Part shown: positions 2,049 to 2,368 of the stretch, in pieces
Numbering within the stretch: the stretch's first letter is position 1
Layout of the letters: the number at the start of each line of letters is the position of its first letter
Origin: an uncultured Thermomicrobiaceae bacterium
Lineage (GTDB): Bacteria; Chloroflexota; Chloroflexia; Thermomicrobiales; Thermomicrobiaceae
Assembly (NCBI GenBank): GCA_938082375.1
Contig: CALKCJ010000042.1
Span: 1-57,066 of the forward strand
Direction of reading: 5' to 3'
Length of the DNA: 57,066 nt
The notes under the pieces: generated by a model
The model's database searches: none
Told to the model about the DNA's origin: nothing
What the model saw: the letters and a program-made list of their open reading frames with translations, nothing else
Position numbers and translations under genes: made by a program

Positions 2049-2077
2049 TTGACACCCCGGTGGCCACATGCTAGGCT
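2049..2077 (+). promoter_or_regulatory. Sigma70-type promoter for the mini-ORF transcript
   Basis: TTGACA (2049-2054), a 17-base spacer and TAGGCT (2072-2077). A start near 2084 is expected. It is one of the best promoter matches in the window and reads into the 15-codon ORF at 2137. Confidence 0.75.
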
Positions 2078-2136
2078 CATGGCGTCGACCGGTGGTCGAG
2101 TTGACCGCGCAGGGTGGAAGGAGGTGATGCCCGGAT

Positions 2137-2184
2137 ATGAGTAGTAGCGCAGTCGCGGGCGTCACCGTGGAGGTCGTCAGCTAG
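2137..2184 (+). CDS. 15-residue valine-rich mini-ORF / leader peptide
   Basis: A short ORF, too small for normal gene calling, reading MSSSAVAGVTVEVVS. It is preceded by AAGGAGGTGA at 2118-2127, a full complement of the 16S rRNA anti-Shine-Dalgarno sequence, with 9 bases to the ATG. Five of its 15 residues are valine (four GTC codons, one GTG). It follows a consensus-like promoter and lies inside a transcript that can fold and that ends in a terminator-like hairpin at 2248-2279. That arrangement fits either an attenuator leader peptide for the downstream DUF1684-pepA pair or an independent small-protein gene. I do not recognise the peptide family. Translation is inferred from the ribosome-binding site, not demonstrated. 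Confidence 0.55.
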   Translation: MSSSAVAGVTVEVVS

Positions 2185-2247
2185 GTCGCATGGCGCGTGG
2201 CGCGGCGAGCGGTATCTGACGCGTCCCGGTGAACGCCCAAGAGAACC

Positions 2248-2282
2248 GGAAGCCGGCCATCTCAATGGGCCGGCTTTCCGTT
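2248..2282 (+). terminator. Intrinsic terminator or attenuator hairpin
   Basis: GGAAGCCGGCC (2248-2258) pairs with GGCCGGCTTTCC (2268-2279), 11 base pairs with one bulged T, around a 9-base loop and followed by a short GTTT. It lies between the mini-ORF and the DUF1684 start at 2369. A weak TATCCT at 2308-2313 is the only promoter-like element after it, so it may work as an attenuator. Confidence 0.55.
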
Positions 2283-2368
2283 TGCCGTGTCCACTTGCCA
2301 CCTGCGGTATCCTAGCCGTCGGGGCCGTCTCTGCCCCCTGGACGTGTACCGAGGACTGGAGCAAGCCG

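Follow-up and report, generated by a model that had tools for sequence, protein, structure and literature searches.

In translational attenuators of the ermC type, a leader peptide is accompanied by stems that alternate so as to mask or expose a Shine–Dalgarno (SD) sequence. The element described here lies in a window of 57,066 nucleotides (the whole stretch of DNA that was analyzed) from an uncultured Thermomicrobiaceae bacterium, and it resembles these attenuators in having a tiny open reading frame (ORF), mutually exclusive helices, and a masked SD; here, too, the position of the ribosome would be expected to pick the fold. What sets it apart from the ermC type is that the SD being masked serves the tiny ORF itself and that a terminator closes the unit. 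Because no regulated gene follows the mini-ORF, the element is not an ermC-type attenuator, although it can be likened to one turned on itself. The leaders of the trp, leu, and ilv operons share with it a short ORF, alternative stems, and a terminator-like hairpin, but the element keeps no run of one residue, has no antiterminator for the terminator arm, and precedes no conserved operon. Dual-function RNAs of the SgrS/SgrT, Spot 42, and RNAIII type are also autonomous genes with a promoter, a terminator, and a small ORF, and the element may be a dual-function small RNA (sRNA), its predicted promoter and conserved frame marking it as an autonomous unit of that kind. Unlike those RNAs, it extends across a phylum with a constant small architecture, a near-perfect complement of the anti-SD, an unconserved peptide, and no known target. 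Messengers of hok-type type I toxins are likewise small and combine a hidden SD with refolding, whereas the peptides of this element have 12–17 amino acids and are not hydrophobic, which sets them apart from membrane toxins.

None of the 4227 families in Rfam 15 matches in the window at the gathering threshold, and nothing relevant appears there at E <= 10; a scan of 14 distant loci against the same release found no family that covers the element. The Chloroflexi-1 RNA (RF01698) is a motif reported from Chloroflexus aggregans (PMC2864571); its match in the window, on the other strand, stays below threshold (20.1 bits versus the 80 required), and it is a different RNA. A partial search of the literature found no description of the element, and its novelty is provisional.

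A first-pass annotation of the window had read this stretch as an unlisted, small transcription unit that possesses a promoter, a 15-codon ORF, a leader able to fold, and a hairpin resembling a terminator; every part that it named is present on the forward strand. The predicted promoter consists of TTGACA (2049–2054), a 17-nt spacer, and TAGGCT (2072–2077), the latter matching the −10 consensus at only three of six positions, and transcription would start near 2084. Directly 5′ of the SD lies a leader conserved in Thermomicrobiales, GACCG.GCAGGGTG (2103–2117), in which CC and AGGG are invariant in two Thermomicrobiales alignments. The near-maximal SD, AAGGAGGTGAT (2118–2128), serves a 15-codon ORF that begins with the ATG at 2137, ends with a TAG at 2182–2184, and encodes MSSSAVAGVTVEVVS, in which 5 of the 15 residues are valine. 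Three short segments can pair with one another: region 1, GGTGATGCCC (2123–2132), overlaps the SD; region 2, GGGCGTCACC (2157–2166), spans codons 7–10; and region 3, GGTGAACGCCC (2228–2238), is a downstream mimic of region 1. The unit closes with a terminal hairpin of 11 bp plus 4 bp (2243–2283; the arms of the 11-bp part are at 2248–2258 and 2268–2278), which is probably an intrinsic terminator and has a weak T-tract, without a clean T-run (TTTCCGTTT). The segment folds with a z-score of −3.57, and none of 200 shuffles is equally stable. Generic promoter and terminator scans of the window flag neither the −10 site nor the hairpin; both promoter and terminator are canonical in many relatives, unlike the weak versions in the window.

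Relatives agree that the element is a transcription unit of its own. Of 138 homologous loci, 96 are preceded by a sigma-70-type promoter that matches at least 9 of 12 consensus positions, mostly 35–45 nt 5′ of the SD; among shuffled upstream sequences, the share is 3.5%. The predicted RNA is about 200 nt long in the window and about 150–180 nt in relatives. The neighbors in the window are a divergent AlaX-like gene, a DUF1684 gene, and a gene for an M17 leucyl aminopeptidase. The AlaX-like gene is faced by a divergent promoter, TTGACA-18-TATCAT (11/12; 2019–1990, minus strand), which stands back to back with that of the mini-gene. Genes downstream vary among relatives and include DUF1684, bL25 and pfkA (both on the opposite strand), smpB, and others; the DUF1684–pepA pair follows only in some Thermomicrobiaceae-type genomes, and in 12 loci, a gene for a LysM lipoprotein is found upstream. 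On these comparisons, the element is an autonomous mini-gene with its own promoter and no fixed neighbor.

In one clade (f22/f33; loci L193, L194, L197, L198, L204, L285, L286, and L289), the mini-gene lies between an S41 peptidase gene upstream and smpB, directly before smpB, and the gene for tmRNA (ssrA) is near. The product in L197 is one that we take to be SmpB by its sequence in the ORF listing, without a profile match. This adjacency hints at a link to ribosome rescue in that clade and, because the element stands directly 5′ of smpB, a role in cis is possible there.

A blastn search with a 261-base query located the element in 42 of 61 relatives, nearly always in one main place, and an exact core (GGTGATGCC followed after 0–14 nt by ATGAGTAG) is present in 41 of the 61 and absent from a reversed control. 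That core, as one exact pattern only, was also absent from viral contigs, and the idea of a phage element was rejected. A covariance model built from 33 sequences (R1) matches 135 of the 158 genomes of the class and 88 of the 93 of good quality; the same covariance model matched none of 246 genomes of Actinomycetota. In a phylum sample of 400 genomes, three covariance models from different clades (R1, R2, and R3) match 91, 54, and 99 genomes, respectively, and their union outside the class comes to 102 of some 346 genomes sampled from other classes, counts that are lower bounds and whose weaker matches (E near 0.01) include some chance ones. The three models recover the same loci reciprocally (for instance in G004, G022, and G103). 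Named carriers include Thermalbibacter longus CFH 74404 (L034) and Thermomicrobium sp. CFH 73360 (L031).

Across Chloroflexota, the element is usually single-copy per genome, and the genome of the window holds one full copy only, so that it is not a repeated element there. Two copies at separate places, with different peptides, were seen in G113 (L236/L237), G122 (L242/L243), and G131 (L188/L245). Near a contig end of G047 (C533, 5817 on the plus strand and 5911 on the minus strand; L101), two different copies point toward each other at a distance of about 90 bases, and each is antisense to the 3′ part of the other.

The SD of the 141 homologous ORFs has the consensus AGG[A/G]GGTG[A/G]TG. In the window, its 11 nt are complementary to the 16S tail ATCACCTCCTT; this sequence, which reads AAAGGAGGTGAT in many homologs, matches the last 11–12 nt of the tail ATCACCTCCTTT as their complement. 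The 16S tail was taken from close relatives (a 13-nt tail pattern in the assembly of the window matched a protein gene), and GCGGCTGGATCACCTCCTTT is present in 8 of 12 relatives tested. The genome of the window contains three occurrences of AAGGAGGTGATG in total. In E. coli, a six-nucleotide SD outperforms longer ones (PMC2176067); thus, an SD of 11–12 nt is probably not kept merely for maximal output.

Region 2 is the arm common to two mutually exclusive helices, since it can pair either with region 1, at the SD, or with region 3, the SD mimic past the stop codon. The first-pass annotation had expected conservation and covariation in the stem formed by 2157–2167 and 2227–2238, and both were found in relatives; it had missed the pairing of region 2 with the SD region (2123–2132), which is the more important one. 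For the region 2–3 helix together with the terminator, covariation is 0.412 versus 0.162 when shuffled (0/500), and slid versions reach at most 0.101. The terminal hairpin has two-sided changes at 7 of 10 counted pairs (33 sequences), and among Anaerolineae-type homologs the covariation of helix and terminator is 0.450 versus 0.187 when shuffled. In the region 1–2 helix, 93.3% of cells are paired. Within the aligned order, region 1 does not vary, so that this helix has no two-sided compensation there; region 2, which reads GGGCRUCRCC in the window's class, carries either A or G where it varies opposite an invariant U, and the helix therefore stays paired. The duplex between SD and ORF has a z-score below −1.5 in 133 of 137 homologs across the phylum, with a median of −19.7 kcal/mol, and the accessibility of the SD is below that with a shuffled ORF in 63 of 68. 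Judged by eye, the pairing partners differ by clade: GGUGAUGCCC/GGGCAUCACC, GAGGUGAUGUGCAG/CUGCACCACCUC, GGUGGUGUG/CACGCCACC, and GGAGGAGGUGAUG/CAUCCCUCCUC.

Simple sequestration of the SD followed by its release through region 3 was considered and rejected. With ViennaRNA at 37 °C, the median unpaired value of the SD is 0.24 without region 3 and 0.26 with it, and a clear opening is predicted in 25 of 135 homologs. Because most homologs lack such an opening, the direction of the switch is put forward as a proposal only, and because thermodynamic folding alone does not suffice to release the SD, involvement of the ribosome or kinetics would be needed.

The 141 homologous ORFs have 12–17 codons (one has 24), start with ATG or GTG, and end with TAG, TAA, or TGA. 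Among the 108 distinct ORFs in which region 2 could be located, the distance from the start codon to region 2 is 18, 21, 24, or 27 nt and a multiple of three in 107, while the untranslated spacing between SD and start varies (3, 6, or 7 nt); thus, changes in ORF length respect the frame. By this comparative evidence, the mini-ORF is translated and under selection for its frame and its stop. The encoded peptides are dissimilar across the phylum beyond starts of the M-S/D-S type and residues forced by pairing (for instance MSSHGTKGITVEAARR, MDSSNKPSAAASLLK, VSSSCHATTEAVR, MSSKRMGVTAGEAR, and VSDSPRSCTTSKEMSV). Given that no peptide sequence is conserved phylum-wide, selection seems to act on a switch in the RNA that is tied to the engagement of ribosomes, and the peptide seems less important than the RNA and its being translated.

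Two further observations concern the ends of the ORF. The start ATGAGTAG (2137–2145 in the window, and likewise in homologs) puts immediate stops in both other frames: among 134 distinct ORFs, the first codon of the +1 frame is a stop in 107 and the second codon of the +2 frame in 100, as if initiation in a wrong frame had to be cut short without delay. Many Thermomicrobiales homologs also carry a small hairpin around the stop codon, which sits in the loop (e.g., GTGCGC-GTCTAA-GCGCAC), and in the Thermomicrobiales alignment this hairpin seems, by eye, to covary.

Several other readings have been weighed against these data. The first-pass annotation had offered an independent small-protein gene as an alternative; an independent small gene is nearer to what the relatives show, but they do not conserve the peptide across the phylum. 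If the 12–17-residue peptide were the product, with the structure merely tuning its translation, the selection on frame and stop would be accounted for, as would an MSS start that is nearly constant within Thermomicrobiales, but such a product would share no sequence across the phylum apart from the start type and the residues forced by pairing. Its median GRAVY of −0.06, which is about 0, also means that it is not a membrane peptide, and we regard this explanation as unlikely. Far less credible is the valine attenuator that the first-pass annotation suggested, in which valine supply would gate leucyl aminopeptidase through the downstream DUF1684–pepA operon. The window does offer 5 valine codons in 15, alternative stems, and a terminator, and DUF1684 is found downstream in several Thermomicrobiaceae-type genomes. 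Relatives contradict the idea: the expected retention of valine codons fails, with a median of one valine in about 15 residues and none in 26 of 128 distinct peptides, the downstream gene varies, and the DUF1684–pepA pair is not conserved. Moreover, neither helix takes in the terminator arm, so that there is no antiterminator, an absence that the first-pass annotation had also remarked.

Two further alternatives were considered. In one, the element is a base-pairing sRNA whose anti-SD-like region 2 (CACCACCUC, or in other classes CCCUCCUC or AUCACCUC) targets the SDs of other mRNAs, the ORF being a timing or decay device of a dual-function RNA. Anaerolineae-type homologs place the CCCUCCUC of region 2 in a hairpin loop, and region 2 in f33 and f35 is close to the 16S anti-SD; in the window's class, however, the GGGCRUCRCC of region 2 is fully engaged in the two alternative helices, and the proposal appears improbable. 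In the other, which we find rather doubtful, the RNA is a 30S decoy that buffers translation capacity: its near-maximal SD would hold 30S subunits in slow initiation complexes at the tiny ORF, and the folds would set the number held. An SD of 11–12 nt exceeds the six-nucleotide optimum of E. coli (PMC2176067), neither peptide nor target gene is conserved, and smpB and tmRNA are adjacent in one clade, but a decoy of this kind would require a very high abundance of the RNA.

The explanation that we prefer, with a probability of roughly one half, is that the element is an autonomous Chloroflexota mini-gene encoding an initiation-gated regulatory RNA that reports or buffers free 30S subunits or initiation capacity. 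Comparison among relatives shows a gene with a promoter, selection on its frame, both helices, a terminator, usually a single copy, and no fixed neighbor, and the two folds would be alternative states of a working RNA. A sigma-70 promoter would make a short RNA that ends at the terminator hairpin. Pairing of regions 1 and 2 would close the SD, pairing of regions 2 and 3 would leave it open, and an RNA free of ribosomes would favor the closed state. The region 1–2 helix would be opened by a 30S subunit bound at the SD or by a ribosome that passes through codons 7–10; region 3 would then capture region 2 and keep the SD open. Ribosome engagement would set the fold because no ribosome can initiate at the SD or move across region 2 while the SD-closing helix is intact. 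The effect would be in trans, exerted by the RNA itself or by ribosome occupancy and not by a conserved peptide. A stronger form of this proposal, which we advance only tentatively, is that a near-universal Chloroflexota RNA senses or buffers initiation capacity, with ribosome availability flipping its two folds and the output delivered in trans. An RNA that senses in this way would set a 16S-complementary SD in competition with an internal anti-SD, which is itself captured by an SD mimic.

A gene that occurs once per genome throughout a large phylum, and in which the frame and two folds are selected but not the peptide, suggests a fundamental part in translation, either housekeeping or regulatory, and one that seems uncataloged. 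With an SD complementary to nearly the full length of the 16S tail and an internal competitor that resembles this tail, the element may be a compact natural system for gauging or rationing ribosomes. It would add a missing RNA family to the annotation of a phylum in which very few RNAs have been characterized.
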